A stretch of DNA of 45,412 nt from a virus. The stretch lies in the IMG/VR virus record IMGVR_UViG_3300010375_000026, positions 1 to 45,412 of that record; one strand, 5' to 3'. Position 1 is the first letter of the stretch, and every line of letters starts with the position of its first letter. The notes below the pieces were generated by a model. That model was not told the DNA's origin. It was given only the letters and a program-made list of their open reading frames with translations, and did not search any database. Shown here piece after piece: positions 238 to 42,624 of the stretch. A program made the position numbers and the translations under genes.

Positions 238-313
238 GCGCCCGTAGCTCAATGGATAGAGTACTGCCCTCCGAAGGCAGGGGTTGCTGGTTCGATCCCA
301 GCCGGGCGCGCCA
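238..313 (+). tRNA. tRNA-Arg (anticodon CCG)
   Basis: This is a complete 76-nt tRNA with encoded CCA. The acceptor strands GCGCCCG (238-244) and CGGGCGC (303-309) pair exactly, with discriminator G at 310 and CCA at 311-313. The anticodon stem CTGCC/GGCAG encloses a loop with CCG, which reads the Arg codon CGG. The T-arm GCTGG/CCAGC carries TTCGATC. The prophage is integrated at the 3' half of this gene, so everything from 262 on is supplied by the phage att core and the tRNA stays functional. Confidence 0.97.
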
Positions 314-11065: not shown

Positions 11066-12055
11066 ATGACTTTCGATTTCGCAGCAGCTATCGCAGCAGC
11101 AGCCGAGACTTCCACCGACATGAACGTTGCCTCGGCGGGCGGCGGCGACTACGCCCCACCGGCTGAAGGTAAGGCTGGCCTGCGCTTCGTGGCCTACATC
11201 GAGATCGGTAAGCAGGAAGGCACGTATCAGGGCAAGCCGAAGGTGAGCGACAAGGTATTCCTCGTGTTCGAGCTGCACGGCCCGAAGTGGCCGCTGAACG
11301 ATAACGGCGAGCCGCAGCGCATCACGGTCGAAGTGAACAAGTCGCAGAACGAGAAGGCCGGGTTCTACAAGATGTTCAAGACCATGAACTACGAGGGCAA
11401 GGCGCGCATCTTCGCGCAGCTCCTCGGCGGCGACTTCTAAGGCAAGATCATCCACCGCAAGTACAAGAACAAGCGAGGCAAGGAGGTGACGGTTGCCGAG
11501 CTGTACGACAAGGTGAATCAGGTCTACACGATTGAAGCGCCGTTCATCGAGGACGAGGAGGGCAACACGAAGCGCCGCAACGTGCCGCCCGCTATCACGC
11601 CGATCAAGGTGTTCCTGTGGGACAACCCGAGCAAGGGCATGTGGGACTCGATCTACATCGATGGTGAATACCCGGAGCGCAAGGACGAGAAGACCGGCGA
11701 GGTGATTGCACCGGCCCGCTCGAAGAACAAGTTCCAGCTTGCCATCAAGGCCGCGAAGAACTTCAAGGGTTCGGCTATCGAGGCGTTGCTCGACGGCGTG
11801 GACGACGAGGCGCTGAACAGCGTGGGAAAAACGCCGGAGCAGGCCGTTGCCGAAAAGAAGGCCAAGAGCGCAGCAGCGAAGGCAAGCTCGTCTGCCGATG
11901 CCGTCGAGGCGCAGCAAGCGAGTTCGACGGCAAGTGCTCCTCCTGCCGAACCGGCGACGAGTGGCGAATCTTCGAGCGCCGCTTCCAAACTGCCCGGCCA
12001 GAATTCGGACCCGGCAGATGAGGACGAACTCGCGGACGACGACCTGCCGTTCTGA
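11066..12055 (+). pseudogene. ssDNA-binding protein gene with in-frame TAA
   Basis: Reading straight through gives one 329-residue protein (counting the stop position) of the T7-like phage single-stranded-DNA-binding class. It has an N-terminal globular part, a long Ala/Ser-rich linker and an acidic tail ending DDDLPF, the kind of tail that contacts polymerase and helicase. A TAA at 11438-11440 (codon 125, after GGDF) splits it into 11066-11440 and an open part running to 12055. The frame is unbroken on both sides and the protein pattern continues (GKIIHRKYKNKRG). The only later start-like codon, GTG 11486, directly abuts a GGAGG and is badly spaced. The first start, ATG 11066, has AAGGAG about 13 bases upstream. 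Confidence 0.85.
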
Positions 12056-18931: not shown

Positions 18932-18970
18932 CGATTCTATGTCTGCTTACGGTCACGAAATTGGCGATTC

Positions 18971-18996
18971 GATTTCATGCCCCTCAGCAGACGCAC
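18971..18996 (+). promoter_or_regulatory. putative phage RNA polymerase promoter after RNAP gene
   Basis: The sequence TCATGCCCCTCAGCAGAC differs at two positions from the exact core of the other three copies and at one more just after it. It lies between the RNAP stop and the first virion-region gene, so it may be a weaker promoter. Confidence 0.65.
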
Positions 18997-20241: not shown

Positions 20242-20685
20242 ATGTGTGGATTTGTGAAAAGCATCGTGAACGGCTTGTTCGGGCAGGCGTCCCGCGACAC
20301 TGCCGACATGAGCGGCGTAGCCGAACAGACACGAGCCATTCAGGAGGCGGCTGAGCGACAAGCTCAAGCGACTCTTGCTGCCGCGCAATCGCAGAAGCAG
20401 GCAGCAGACGCAGCGGCGGCTGCACAGGCGCAGCAGGCTCAACAGTCGGCGCAGGCGGCAGCGCAGTCGCAGATGCAGTCGATCAACCAACAGCAGCTCA
20501 ACTCCAAGGCCGCTGCGGATGCACAGGAGGCAGCAGCGAAGACCGCCGCCGAGAACACGGTGAAGGTTGACACGACGGCGAACTCCGAGGACGAGCCGGA
20601 CAACGCAGCGCTGCGGCGGCGGTACTTCCAGCAAGCTCAAGCATCGCAGGCGACGAAGGGCGGCTCGGGGATCACGCTTAGCTGA
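20242..20685 (+). CDS. Ala/Gln-rich virion-region protein B
   Basis: A 147-residue paralogue of the preceding protein at its C-terminus, with an Ala/Gln-rich coiled middle and an MCGF N-terminus followed by an amphipathic helix. The N-terminal MC recalls internal virion proteins of T7-like phages, including the gp14-like protein at 27462. ATG 20242 has AAGGAGG seven bases upstream and the stop overlaps the portal start (TGATG). Function inferred as virion-associated. Confidence 0.65.
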   Translation: MCGFVKSIVNGLFGQASRDTADMSGVAEQTRAIQEAAERQAQATLAAAQSQKQAADAAAAAQAQQAQQSAQAAAQSQMQSINQQQLNSKAAADAQEAAAKTAAENTVKVDTTANSEDEPDNAALRRRYFQQAQASQATKGGSGITLS

Positions 20686-22244
20686 TGCAGTTCACGGCTG
20701 AGCAGGCGTGGGAGTCCCTCGCGGGGCTCCGCCGCCCACTCTTGACGCGATGTGAGAAATACAGCGCGTTCACCCTGCCGACGATCATCACGCCGCAGGG
20801 CTACAACGAGGAGCTTGAGGAGCTTCAGACCGACTTCCAATCGGTCGGCGCGCAGGGCGTGAACAACCTCGCGAACAAGCTGATGCTTGCGCTATTCGCG
20901 CCGAGCCGGCCGTTCTTCCGGTATCAGGTCGCGGCGTCTTTGATGGAGCAGCTCAAGCGGACGCTCAACGTCAAGGAGCAGGACTTGCAGGAGATGCTGG
21001 CTTAGGGCGAGCGGAACTGCATCCGTACGCTCGACGCGATGGGCGTACGGCCGAAGCTGTACGAAGCCATGAAGCACCTCATCATCACCGGGAACTGTCT
21101 GCTCATCCTTGGCGATGATCCCAAGGACACGCCGATGCGCGTGTTGTCGCTGAAGCGGTACGCCGTGAAGCGCAGCATGAGCGGCAGGCTCCTCCAGCTC
21201 ATCATCCACGAGACGGTGCGATTCGATGAGTTGGACGACGAGGTGCAGAAGATCGCGGCGCAGTCCAGCAGCCGGTACGCAAACGTTGATCCGAACGACC
21301 CTAATTCGTGCCCGGAGGTGAAGTACTTCACATGGGTGCGGTGGGACGGCATGGCGAACTACATCGTCACGCATCACGTTGACGACGTGGAGCTGCCTGC
21401 GGAATTCAGCGGCAAGTACACGGACCAAGACCTGCCGTACATCCCTCTGACGTGGGAACTGCACGACGACAACGACTACGGCACCGGGCTCGTGGAGCAG
21501 ATGGCAGGCGACCTTGCTGCGCTGTCGGCGCTTTCAGAGGCCGAAGTGAAGGGCGCAATCCTTGCATCGGAGTTCCGCTGGCTGGTGAATCCGGCAGGGC
21601 AGACCCGGCCCGAGGACATCGAAGACAGTGATAACGGTGCGGCGCTACCCGGCACGAAGGATGACGTTGTTCCGCTGAACAGCGGCACGGGTCAGGCGAT
21701 GCAGTACATCGACACGGTTGCGACGAAGTATGTGAACCGAATCGGGCGGAACTTCCTGCTCAGCTCCTCCATCGTCCGCGACGCAGAGCGCGTGACCGCC
21801 GAGGAGATTCGCATGCAGGCGAACGAGCTGGAGACGAGCCTCGGCGGAGTCTACTCGCGCCTCGCCGTCGATTTCCAGAAGCCGATGGCGTACTGGCTCA
21901 CTAAGCGTGCGGGCGTTCAGCTCGCAGGTAAGGACATCGAGCCGATGGTCATCACGGGGCTGGACGCCCTGAGCCGCAACGGCGACCTCGACAACCTCAA
22001 GCTCGCGCTGCAAGACCTCGCAGCCGTATCCGGCATGCCTCCGCAGGCTCTCGCCGTGCTGAACCTGACAGCCATCGCCAAGGCCATCTTCATGGGCCGA
22101 GGCGTGACGATGGCCGACTACGTGAAGTCGCAGGAGCAGCAAGCAGCAGACCTCCAGAACGAGAACGCAGCGGCGCTGGCGCAGCAGGTCGCGCGCCCCG
22201 TTGCACAAGCCGTCATGAGCGGCCAACCCAACCAACAAGGATAA
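20685..22244 (+). pseudogene. portal (head-tail connector) gene with in-frame TAG
   Basis: Reading through gives a 519-position portal protein of the T7 gp8 type, the dodecameric ring through which DNA enters and leaves the head. The conserved pattern SVGAQGVNNLANKLMLALFAP is near residue 50, and the family pattern HLIITGNCLLIL follows the break. A TAG at 21003-21005 (codon 107, after QEMLA) interrupts it. Both sides are in the same frame and the protein pattern continues at once (GERNCIRTLDAMG). A one-base change from CAG, AAG, GAG or TGG would explain it. ATG 21039 could restart translation but lacks a ribosome binding site. ATG 20685 overlaps the previous stop. Confidence 0.9.
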
Positions 22245-23172: not shown

Positions 23173-23198
23173 GATTTCATGACCCTAAGCAGACACAA
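23173..23198 (+). promoter_or_regulatory. putative phage RNA polymerase promoter before capsid
   Basis: A GATT followed by TCATGACCCTAAGCAGACAC, identical to the left-end copy. It lies 21 bases before the capsid ATG, with AGGAG in between, so the highest-demand gene has its own promoter. Confidence 0.8.
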
Positions 23199-35682: not shown

Positions 35683-35708
35683 CAATTTCATGACCCTAAG
35701 CAGACACT
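35683..35708 (+). promoter_or_regulatory. putative phage RNA polymerase promoter before fibre
   Basis: A CAATT followed by TCATGACCCTAAGCAGACAC, identical in core to the left-end and capsid copies. It lies 17 bases before the fibre start and its GGAGG site. Confidence 0.8.
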
Positions 35709-35724
35709 AACAACAGGAGGTCAC

Positions 35725-37356
35725 ATGGCAGCGGACTACCTTGTCCCGTGGCTAAAAGCAGCGGGTCAGGATGGCCTGCGCAATTCGATGATGGTCGCCC
35801 AAGGCGATAACGTCACGAAGACATACACCTTCAACTTCGCTGGTGGGTACATCAGCAAGGATCACATCAAAGCGTACGTGTACGACGAGGTGGCGGGTAC
35901 GACAACGCCGCAGGTCATCACGCCCGCTATGTGGACTGGCCCGAGCCAGCTCACCTTCGGCACGGCATTCGCCGCCACACAGTTCCTCGTTATCTACCGG
36001 GACACGCCGAAAGACAAGCCGCTCTTGAGCTTTAAGAACGGCTCCATCATGAACGAGCCGAATCTCGACGAGATGGCCGAGCAGTCGGTCTTCTCGGCCG
36101 CTGAGACTCAGGACCGCTTCGACCTCGTGAACGACGGCTCCACGCTGGCGATCAACAACGCGGCTACGGCGCTGTCGCAGTCCAACAAAGCAGTCGCGGA
36201 TTCGGCGCAGGCGACACTCACGTCCGCCGCAGCCGAGTCTACGGCATCAGCGGCAAAATCGGTCGCGGACGCTGCAAGCGCCACCGCGAACGCTGCCAAC
36301 GATACGGCGAACGGCATCGATGCCAAAGCCACTACGGCGCTGAGCAATTCGAACAGCGCCGTCAGCACGGCGAATGCCGCCAGTGCGACGGCGAACGGCA
36401 TCGACGCGAAGGCGACCAAGGCGCAGTCCGATGCCGCCGCCGCCGTTGTGACGGCAAACGCGGCCAGCGCTACGGCGAGCGCTGCGAAGGCCACGGCTGA
36501 CGGGGTGGATGCCAAAGCTCAGAGCGCACTGGACACGGCGAACAACGCGGTTCAGAAGACTGGCGGTCGCGTGACCGGACCATTGACGCTAAGTTCGACT
36601 ACGAACTACAGCCGGACGGTATGGGACGCGAACGGCTACGCCCCGGCTGTGCAGGCCGATAAGGCGAGCAACCATATCGGCTTCGTGAATGCCGCCAACA
36701 CTGCCTACAACCTGTATGTGTTCGACGGTGGGCAAGTGGCAACGCGTGGGCCATTGACCGTAGGTGGCAACACGGTGGCAGGCGGGTCCAATGCGTCCCT
36801 TGTCAACAACGGTGACATTTGGGGCACCGCGTGGAACGGCGGTGGCTGGCTTAGTACCTACCTTGGCGGCAAGCTGAACGTTACAGGCGGCAACGTGAAC
36901 GGCCGCCTCAGCTGCACGTTGCAGGGCTGGCAGGCCGACTTGGCTCTGCATAACTGGCGGACTGGTCAAGACGCATGGGTGTACCTCCGGGCGCGAGACG
37001 GTGGTGGCCTCGACATCATCAACAGCGCCTACAACGCAGTGCCGTGGCAGGTGGATAACGGTGGGACTGTATGGCAGGCTGGCGCGTTGAATGTAGGTGC
37101 GGTGCGTTTCCAGACGGACGGGAACATCGTCGGCGGGAACATGCCGTGGGGCGACCTGTTTTCCGCGATCAACGTCAAGGTGAACAACGGGACACAAGCG
37201 ACACACCGCACGGGCGTCAACGAGTTCGCCTCGATCAACGTGGGCTATGCCGCCAACACTGCGGACGCAGGCTCGCCATGGGTTCTTATCGGAATGCGCT
37301 CACAAAATGGCTCTAACGTCACCTACCTGCGTGCTAACTGGCTCGCGGTAGGCTAA
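35725..37356 (+). CDS. tail fibre protein
   Basis: A 543-residue receptor-binding fibre. Residues 1-135 match the T7 gp17 N-terminal tail-attachment domain (YTFNFAGGYISKDHIKAYV, LVIYRDTP). Residues about 150-275 are Ala/Ser/Thr repeats with the unit TANGIDAKAT and SATA, probably a trimeric coiled shaft. The C-terminal half is Gly/Asn-rich beta sequence that would contact the host. It has its own phage promoter and a GGAGG site. The repeats could recombine and change shaft length. Confidence 0.9.
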   Translation: MAADYLVPWLKAAGQDGLRNSMMVAQGDNVTKTYTFNFAGGYISKDHIKAYVYDEVAGTTTPQVITPAMWTGPSQLTFGTAFAATQFLVIYRDTPKDKPLLSFKNGSIMNEPNLDEMAEQSVFSAAETQDRFDLVNDGSTLAINNAATALSQSNKAVADSAQATLTSAAAESTASAAKSVADAASATANAANDTANGIDAKATTALSNSNSAVSTANAASATANGIDAKATKAQSDAAAAVVTANAASATASAAKATADGVDAKAQSALDTANNAVQKTGGRVTGPLTLSSTTNYSRTVWDANGYAPAVQADKASNHIGFVNAANTAYNLYVFDGGQVATRGPLTVGGNTVAGGSNASLVNNGDIWGTAWNGGGWLSTYLGGKLNVTGGNVNGRLSCTLQGWQADLALHNWRTGQDAWVYLRARDGGGLDIINSAYNAVPWQVDNGGTVWQAGALNVGAVRFQTDGNIVGGNMPWGDLFSAINVKVNNGTQATHRTGVNEFASINVGYAANTADAGSPWVLIGMRSQNGSNVTYLRANWLAVG

Positions 37357-37364
37357 GGAGAAAT

Positions 37365-37769
37365 ATGGCATACACGCATGAGCACATGGTGTTCACGCTC
37401 ATGGAAATGTATCCGCACCTATCTCACTGGAAAGACTACAAGGTGGCACACCCGTGCTGCCCCGTGTCCGGTGAGCAGAACGCCGATCCTTGGATCGTTG
37501 AATGGACGGCCCCGGATGTCAAGCCGAAGGCCGAATGGGTGCTGGATTACTTCCAAGGGCATGAGGAAGAAATCTGCGCGAAGCTCGCTCGATACCATCG
37601 GGACGACAAGCTGCGGTTTAGCGACCAGTTCGCTTCACTACCGAGTGACGCTCCGCCGTATCTTGTGGATCGCCACGCGAAGATCGTGGAATATCGCGCG
37701 AAGCTGCGCAACATCGAAAACCTACCCGGCTGGCCTCTCGAAGTGGAGTGGCCGGAATTTCCAAAATAG
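37365..37769 (+). CDS. protein after fibre, possible fibre chaperone
   Basis: A 134-residue protein of unknown function directly after the fibre gene, a usual place for fibre-assembly chaperones. It is rich in Trp, Pro and aromatic residues (WIVEWTAPDVKPKAEWVLDYF), with no clear domain match. ATG 37365 has AGGAG upstream. It ends in TAG, so TAG is used as a real stop in this phage, which matters for the portal gene. Confidence 0.65.
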   Translation: MAYTHEHMVFTLMEMYPHLSHWKDYKVAHPCCPVSGEQNADPWIVEWTAPDVKPKAEWVLDYFQGHEEEICAKLARYHRDDKLRFSDQFASLPSDAPPYLVDRHAKIVEYRAKLRNIENLPGWPLEVEWPEFPK

Positions 37770-41190: not shown

Positions 41191-42228
41191 TCAGCCCAGC
41201 TTCTTCGCCAAGTCCTTCGCCTTGAGGTGCGTGTACCGGCGCATCATGGCGTTGGTCTTGTGCCCCGTGACGGACATCACCTCCGTCTCGATCAGCCCCT
41301 TCTCGAACAGCCGACTCGTGGCCTCATGCCGCGTGTCATGGAACCGTACACCTTCGATCCCGGCCCGCTTACGCAGTCGGGCGAATGCCTGCTTCACTGC
41401 CGACGCCGTGAGATCAGGGAACACGCGGCCCTTACGCTTCGCCGGGGCCGGCTCGATGCCGGTCAGCACCTCGTATGCTCGGGTGGACAGAGGTACGCCG
41501 CGCATCTCGTCCGTCTTCGTCGAGCCCCACCGCAGGATCACGACCCGATCCTCCAGGTCGACATTCTCCCATTCCAGCTCACGGGCTTCGCCTTGGCGCA
41601 TGCCTGTCTCGATGCACAGCTCGATCAGCGGGGCCATCCACGTCACGCGGCCCTTGGTGGCAGCAGCGAGTAGCTTCTGCTCCTCGTCGCCATCCACCCG
41701 TCGGTCACGCGGCGCGGCGTTCTTCGGCCGGCGCACGTCGGACACCGGGTTCGTAGGCGTCCCCATGCCCCATTCTGTCCGGGCAATCTCAAGGACGTGG
41801 TGCAGCAAGTTCAGCTCTCGGTTGACGGTATCGCCGGACACCGGGCGAGCTTCCTTGCCCCGCTTCCCGTTCGTGCCTTCGACGCCCTCCAGCCGCCTGT
41901 CGCGCCAGTTCGCGATGATGGCGGGTGTGAGCTTCCCGACCGCATACTCAGCCATGCTGTCCCGCTGGATGGCCTTGAGCCGCCACTCCTCAGAATCGCT
42001 ACCCTTCTTCTCAGGCGTGACCTTTTCCAGATACGTGCCAATTACGTCCTTCAGCAGCACGCCGCCTTCCAGATGGGAGAACCGATCGCTGTTCATCCGG
42101 GCTTCCACGTCGGTCGCCCATGTCTCGGCTTCCTTGTAGGTGTCGAAGGTCTGAATCTGCTGAGGGAAGCCCTTCTTGCGGACCATCGCCGTCCACTTGC
42201 CGCTCTTGCGCTGCTGGATTGTAGCCAT
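41191..42228 (-). CDS. tyrosine site-specific integrase
   Basis: A 345-residue recombinase that inserts and, with a helper, excises the prophage. Catalytic residues are R211 (GMRQGE), K238, H297-x-x-R300 (HDTRHE), H323 (TGHKT) and Y332 (RRYTH). Residues 1-45 form an AP2-like arm-binding domain, with FDTYKEAET at 28-36. It is the only minus-strand gene of the prophage and lies beside the right att core. A good sigma-70 promoter reads into it, and GGAG lies five bases before ATG. Confidence 0.97.
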   Translation of the reverse strand: MATIQQRKSGKWTAMVRKKGFPQQIQTFDTYKEAETWATDVEARMNSDRFSHLEGGVLLKDVIGTYLEKVTPEKKGSDSEEWRLKAIQRDSMAEYAVGKLTPAIIANWRDRRLEGVEGTNGKRGKEARPVSGDTVNRELNLLHHVLEIARTEWGMGTPTNPVSDVRRPKNAAPRDRRVDGDEEQKLLAAATKGRVTWMAPLIELCIETGMRQGEARELEWENVDLEDRVVILRWGSTKTDEMRGVPLSTRAYEVLTGIEPAPAKRKGRVFPDLTASAVKQAFARLRKRAGIEGVRFHDTRHEATSRLFEKGLIETEVMSVTGHKTNAMMRRYTHLKAKDLAKKLG

Positions 42229-42282: not shown

Positions 42283-42331
42283 TGGATAGAGTTCGAGGCG
42301 CCCGCGTAGCAAGGCGAAGCGGGCGGCGATT
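42279..42331. repeat. tRNA D-arm remnant plus 39-base hairpin insert
   Basis: TCAATGGATAGAGT (42279-42292) is identical to bases 249-262 of the tRNA gene. In the tRNA the att core follows directly; here a 39-base insert (42293-42331) comes between. The insert holds a perfect CGCCCGC/GCGGGCG hairpin, and GCGCCCG within it equals the tRNA 5' acceptor strand. Confidence 0.7.
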
Positions 42332-42385
42332 TACTGCCCTCCGAAGGCAGGGGTTGCTGGTTCGATCCCAGCCGGGCGCGCCAAG
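42332..42385 (+). repeat. attR: right att site core (54-bp direct repeat)
   Basis: An exact copy of 262-315: the anticodon arm, T-arm and 3' acceptor strand of tRNA-Arg plus CCA and two further bases. This is the displaced 3' end of the original host gene and does not by itself form a tRNA. Confidence 0.95.
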
Positions 42386-42624
42386 CCTGCCTGATTCCAG
42401 GCACCGAACTTCCCGATCCGTTTGTCCCGAATTCGCTGAAGCGCTGAATTGCGCGATCGGCTGAGTCCGTATGGCTCTCGATATCGCGTCGTCTCGTCAG
42501 CTCCGTGGCATCCACCGCCCGTTTCCCGCGCCGGTTCGCTGCCGCGCCGTCATGCGAGAATTCCCCACCGACAACTCCAAGCGTCGATCGCGGCGGCCGT
42601 CCGCGCATCGCGCCGACTCTCCCG
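42386..42624. other. host intergenic stretch, no gene seen
   Basis: No supported gene. Open frames run through it into the next gene but show no protein-like pattern or ribosome binding site. Confidence 0.4.

Follow-up and report, generated by a model that had tools for sequence, protein, structure and literature searches.

An integrated Paku-like Burkholderia prophage with two in-frame nonsense codons, probably at an early stage of decay

The window, which is the whole stretch of DNA analysed here (a viral record, 45,412 bases long), is a prophage of the family Autographiviridae integrated in a Burkholderia chromosome; its sister is Burkholderia phage Paku. Two of its genes are interrupted by in-frame stop codons: a TAG in the portal gene and a TAA, newly found here, in the homologue of Paku_026, which probably encodes a single-stranded DNA-binding (ssDNA-binding) protein. 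The early decay of a formerly temperate Paku-like prophage, now defective through two recent nonsense substitutions, is a highly probable explanation.

Results

Prophage setting and attachment sites

The window is recognized as an integrated prophage because it has an integrase, attachment repeats at a tRNA-Arg gene and Burkholderia-like flanks. The features concerned are:

238-313, plus strand: tRNA-Arg(CCG), the left attachment site, with the attachment core from 262 (ARAGORN, Rfam)
41191-42228, minus strand: tyrosine integrase (Pfam PF00589, E 6.9e-28; 96.8% identity to Paku_055)
42332-42393, plus strand: right attachment repeat, with a 54-bp core identical to Paku 42482-42535

The direct repeat is 62 nt long (262-323 and 42332-42393, 95% identical), and its left copy lies inside the tRNA-Arg(CCG). 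In Paku, the 54-bp core adjoins the integrase gene. The left-end 240 bases of the window are 90-97% identical to Burkholderia chromosomes, and the right-end 3 kb are about 71-79% identical to other Burkholderia; no match to the right flank was found among plasmids. Thus the window has a single-subunit RNA polymerase (98.2% to Paku_033), an integrase, attachment repeats and host DNA outside of them, as is characteristic of an integrated temperate autographivirus.

Two apparent tRNA genes were rejected. The "tRNA-Asn" that ARAGORN places at 42298-42383, a candidate tRNA or suppressor, is the attachment repeat, and the "tRNA-Ser" annotated in Paku (L023 42469-42533) is a tRNA-Arg attachment fragment.

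Two Burkholderia chromosomes (L118 in G047 and L121 in G028) also harbour Paku-like prophages, in which two integrase genes lie side by side. These two integrases show about 59% and 39% identity to that of the window. The attachment core of the window is absent from the stretches read, and these prophages therefore likely have another integration site.

A TAG codon interrupts the portal gene

20685-22244, plus strand: portal (head-tail connector) gene (Pfam PF12236, PHROG 449), 519 codons, interrupted at codon 107
21003-21005, plus strand: in-frame TAG, codon 107 of the portal gene; a sense codon in all relatives compared

The portal frame begins with the ATG at 20685 and runs for 106 codons to the TAG, after which 412 further codons lead to the TAA stop at 22242-22244. 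An earlier note on this DNA had placed the TAG in frame within the portal gene, and both the frame and the portal-family homology on either side agree with this. Taken singly, the two halves match PF12236 (3-109, E 6.9e-14, and 104-484, E 6e-38) as well as the PHROG 449 head-tail adaptor (6-109 and 112-512), and the profile positions matched are consecutive with both Pfam and PHROG. Since both halves thus belong to the head-tail connector family and follow on from one another in the profiles, this is one gene with an internal stop, and a chance adjacency of two unrelated open reading frames is excluded. With an X at the stop, the match to PF12236 is full-length (4-474, E 1.3e-56). Matches to solved portals reach E 2.9e-53, and the amino acid identity to Paku_038 is 98.3% over the full length. 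The portal of the window is thus a broken member of the Autographiviridae portal family, with the full-length profile match of that family but with its reading frame interrupted at codon 107. It was also said earlier that the frame goes on at once after the TAG with HLIITGNCL. The frame does continue; however, the residues directly after the TAG are GERNCIRTLDAMG, which are conserved in close relatives too, and HLIITGNCL is situated 24 codons further on.

An in-frame ATG is present 11 codons past the TAG, at 21039, and a second polypeptide might start there, the portal then consisting of two functional chains. However, no Shine-Dalgarno-like sequence precedes 21039, none of the relatives has a split portal, and the solved portal homologues are single chains of ~500 residues. 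A split portal is therefore hardly credible.

The comparison with close phages that the earlier note had proposed shows a sense codon at the TAG column in 23 of 23 related records (Paku, 20 IMG/VR loci and two Burkholderia genomes); no relative shares the TAG. The codon in Paku is GAG. Thus one substitution separates the TAG from the codon of the closest relatives, and the single base change suggested previously is sufficient. In the 20 IMG/VR relatives the column has E in the nearest and in several others, and T, V, L or M elsewhere. A portal search of 65 Burkholderia genomes detected two close portals, 97-98% identical to that of the window, both intact and both with GAG. A first portal scan of genome contigs had shown no match; because the later genus-wide Burkholderia search gave these two, the empty scan is no evidence of absence. 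The 24 nt spanning the TAG, searched as an exact string, gave no hit in an IMG/VR scan that may omit the record of the window itself and near copies. It should be noted that two kinds of stops seen in relatives were rejected as lesions: the stop at codon 518 of the portal of one relative (G002) is most likely the natural gene end, and the stops that tblastn shows at codons 9-10 of the ligase in relatives are most likely due to the longer start that was chosen for the window open reading frame.

A second in-frame stop in the Paku_026 homologue

11066-12055, plus strand: Paku_026 homologue (PHROG 862), putative ssDNA-binding protein, interrupted at codon 125
11438-11440, plus strand: second in-frame stop, TAA, codon 125 of this gene; sense codons in relatives

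The TAA was found by mapping all 55 Paku proteins onto the window. The corresponding codon is Gln (CAA) in the three nearest relatives (Paku, G001 and G002), Arg in the two Burkholderia genome copies, and a sense codon in other relatives. The homologues in six further viral records are open and without stops, and among the relatives compared the TAA is unique to the window record.

PHROG 862 is annotated as of unknown function and has relatives in 950 phage records. In the window, the gene is located between the DNA polymerase and exonuclease genes. Gene 026 has no match in Pfam, and a sequence search of the PDB gave nothing useful. An AlphaFold2 model of the protein (mean pLDDT 71) weakly resembles OB-fold ssDNA-binding proteins; its best PDB structure matches are SSB/OB proteins, at weak scores (Foldseek E about 3e-3; PrgE, Z 6.7). 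In addition, the protein has an acidic C-terminal tail that ends in DDDLPF and resembles the acidic C-terminal tip of bacterial SSB. From the model and the tail, the product is a putative ssDNA-binding protein, and the TAA falls within the OB-like domain of the model.

Each of the two lesions is a single substitution seen in no other record, and both genes are otherwise flawless in frame, length and constraint. The same would be seen if one or both stops were wrong bases in a draft contig, from sequencing or assembly error, and the prophage intact. The error rate of finished contigs is usually about 1e-5 or lower, and 3-4% of random coding substitutions create a stop; two stop-making errors in 42 kb would be improbable at such rates. 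Error is thus an unlikely source of the stops, which are probably real in the organism.

Stop codon usage, tRNAs and recoding

37767-37769, plus strand: TAG terminator of the fibre-assembly chaperone open reading frame (37365-37769), the only TAG terminator among 48 open reading frames

The 48 open reading frames of the window end in TGA (26), TAA (21) or TAG (1), and two internal stops occur across them, the portal TAG and the gene 026 TAA. The one TAG terminator confirms an earlier reading of 37767-37769 as a true stop. A search with ARAGORN and Rfam shows no suppressor tRNA in the window, where the only real tRNA is the tRNA-Arg(CCG). A phage using code 15, in which TAG encodes Gln, has many in-frame TAGs and avoids TAG as a terminator; the window has one of each. 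Recoding is disfavoured because two different stops are found in two unrelated genes, 21 genes end in TAA and one in TAG, and no suppressor tRNA is present in the window. TAG reassignment, which the earlier note held to be unlikely, was therefore rejected, and the in-frame TAA strengthens that judgement. The same note had regarded the TAG as an isolated peculiarity of a phage that might be functional. The codon is real, but the second in-frame stop had been missed, and this second stop fits ordinary prophage decay better.

A functional role for readthrough should also be considered, whereby a host suppressor tRNA or weak natural readthrough would yield enough full-length portal and ssDNA-binding protein. 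An ochre suppressor reads both TAA and TAG. Purifying selection is seen around both stops, and an inserted residue might be tolerated in the portal, where relatives have E, T, V, L or M. It has been argued that bacteria widely read through in-frame stops that are young (PMC7918605). However, the window itself has no suppressor tRNA, and an ochre suppressor would extend 22 of its 48 open reading frames, those with a TAA or TAG terminator. The stops are conserved in no relative, so that there is no sign of selection for their retention, and the period before the mutations is enough to account for the constraint in full. Functional readthrough is thus very improbable. Readthrough of the TAG alone is not expected to give a working phage, because gene 026 also carries a nonsense codon. 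Still more doubtful is an arrangement in which two essential genes are kept behind stops and virion production is tied to the translational state of the host, through an ochre or amber suppressor or leaky termination.

Selection and age of the lesions

The conserved genes of the window keep a single frame along their length when aligned to relatives, and ~11,800 other conserved codons show no stop and no frameshift. The small early hypothetical genes of the left 6 kb are too variable to judge, and the matches to Paku ORFs 002, 004 and 015 in this part of the window are all broken or partial. Changes in the window were counted at codons that are the same in Paku and in G001 (IMGVR_UViG_2808606905_000006). 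Over all genes, 630 of these changes are synonymous, 146 nonsynonymous and 2 nonsense, with a dN/dS-like ratio of 0.067; the portal has 28, 3 and 1, respectively. Thus both interrupted genes show strong past purifying selection, over nearly the whole time since divergence.

Two nonsense changes arising neutrally would be accompanied by ~15 synonymous changes, or 2-3% of those seen, a rough figure that is based on two events. Because the neutral share is so small, the lesions are young, and because they are young the dN/dS signal is uninformative on present function. In-frame stops are reported to be commonest in mobilome genes and mostly young or short-lived (PMC7918605).

The absence of any frameshift from the conserved codons is a counterpoint to neutral decay, which would be expected to produce frameshifts a few times more often than nonsense codons. 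Counts in PMC5854121 give a Vibrio indel rate of 0.16-0.27 per substitution. By a crude reckoning from the Vibrio rates, two nonsense codons with zero frameshifts would have a probability of roughly 3-6%, a mild tension with neutral decay.

A proposed course of early decay

In the decay proposed here, an integrated Paku-like prophage would no longer be selected for virion production, and loss of function would follow. A recent nonsense substitution (TAG) would have hit the portal gene, and a second (TAA) would have cut a replication-module gene, probably that of the ssDNA-binding protein. T7-type phages require the portal. With translation of the portal ending after 106 residues, neither a portal ring nor DNA packaging would be expected, and the function of both genes is probably abolished. 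Because the lysis genes are intact, induction could still lyse the cell, but infectious particles would be few or none unless the lacking proteins came from a related phage.

Promoter-like elements and the fibre module

A 23-nt element, ATTTCATGACCCTAAGCAGACAC, has five copies in the window with 0-3 mismatches, where none are expected by chance:

874-896, 18972-18994, 23174-23196 and 35685-35707, plus strand: ATTTCATGACCCTAAGCAGACAC copies
18939-18961, minus strand: ATTTCATGACCCTAAGCAGACAC copy in the opposite direction, just after the RNA polymerase gene

These are likely phage RNA polymerase promoters. Three 29-nt repeats at 1217-1485, each with a TTGACA-type sigma-70-like promoter, resemble a strong early promoter cluster. 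The fibre C-terminus and chaperone (35725-37769) show 37% and 33% identity to Paku, and 83% and 63% to IMGVR_UViG_2808606867_000001; from these identities the two appear to be a swapped receptor-binding module.

Comparison with known systems

Paku (MZ326863; Autographiviridae, Okabevirinae) is a plaque-forming isolate with a tyrosine integrase (PMC9022590). It has the same gene order as the window, a closely similar integrase and the same attachment core, with 91% nucleotide identity across the central 24 kb (10 to 34 kb). Paku differs as a plaque-forming phage whose portal and 026 genes are intact; its fibre C-terminus and chaperone are of another type, and several early genes differ. Other temperate T7-like phages, LUZ100, Pasto and HTVC019P, compared by the text of PMC10134795, likewise combine a T7-type genome with a tyrosine integrase and with either a tRNA attachment site or the remnant of a tRNA. 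In LUZ100 the integrase is near the RNA polymerase and the tRNA is tRNA-Leu, whereas the window has its integrase at the right end and uses tRNA-Arg(CCG).

Stop-recoding phages (code 15, crAss-like and others; PMC9523058, PMC10607447) also show in-frame TAG in late structural genes; in phAss-1, TAG is present in 41 ORFs (PMC10607447). The window differs in having one TAG instead of dozens, no suppressor tRNA within it, and an in-frame TAA besides.

In state, the window resembles defective (cryptic) prophages, which are integrated and have essential genes inactivated by nonsense mutation. At the sequence level the window has lesions of this loss-of-function kind, two nonsense codons in essential genes that are absent from relatives. 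It differs from them in its very early stage, with nearly all genes intact and no core-gene deletions seen. The kind of lesion is ordinary. An in-frame stop, however striking in a virion gene, may reflect nothing more than early prophage decay, and one should look for a second lesion, with another stop codon, before proposing recoding. The prophage itself is new and, as a temperate autographivirus, mildly unusual, and it adds an integrated example, with a tRNA-Arg attachment site, to the unusual temperate Paku-like autographiviruses.
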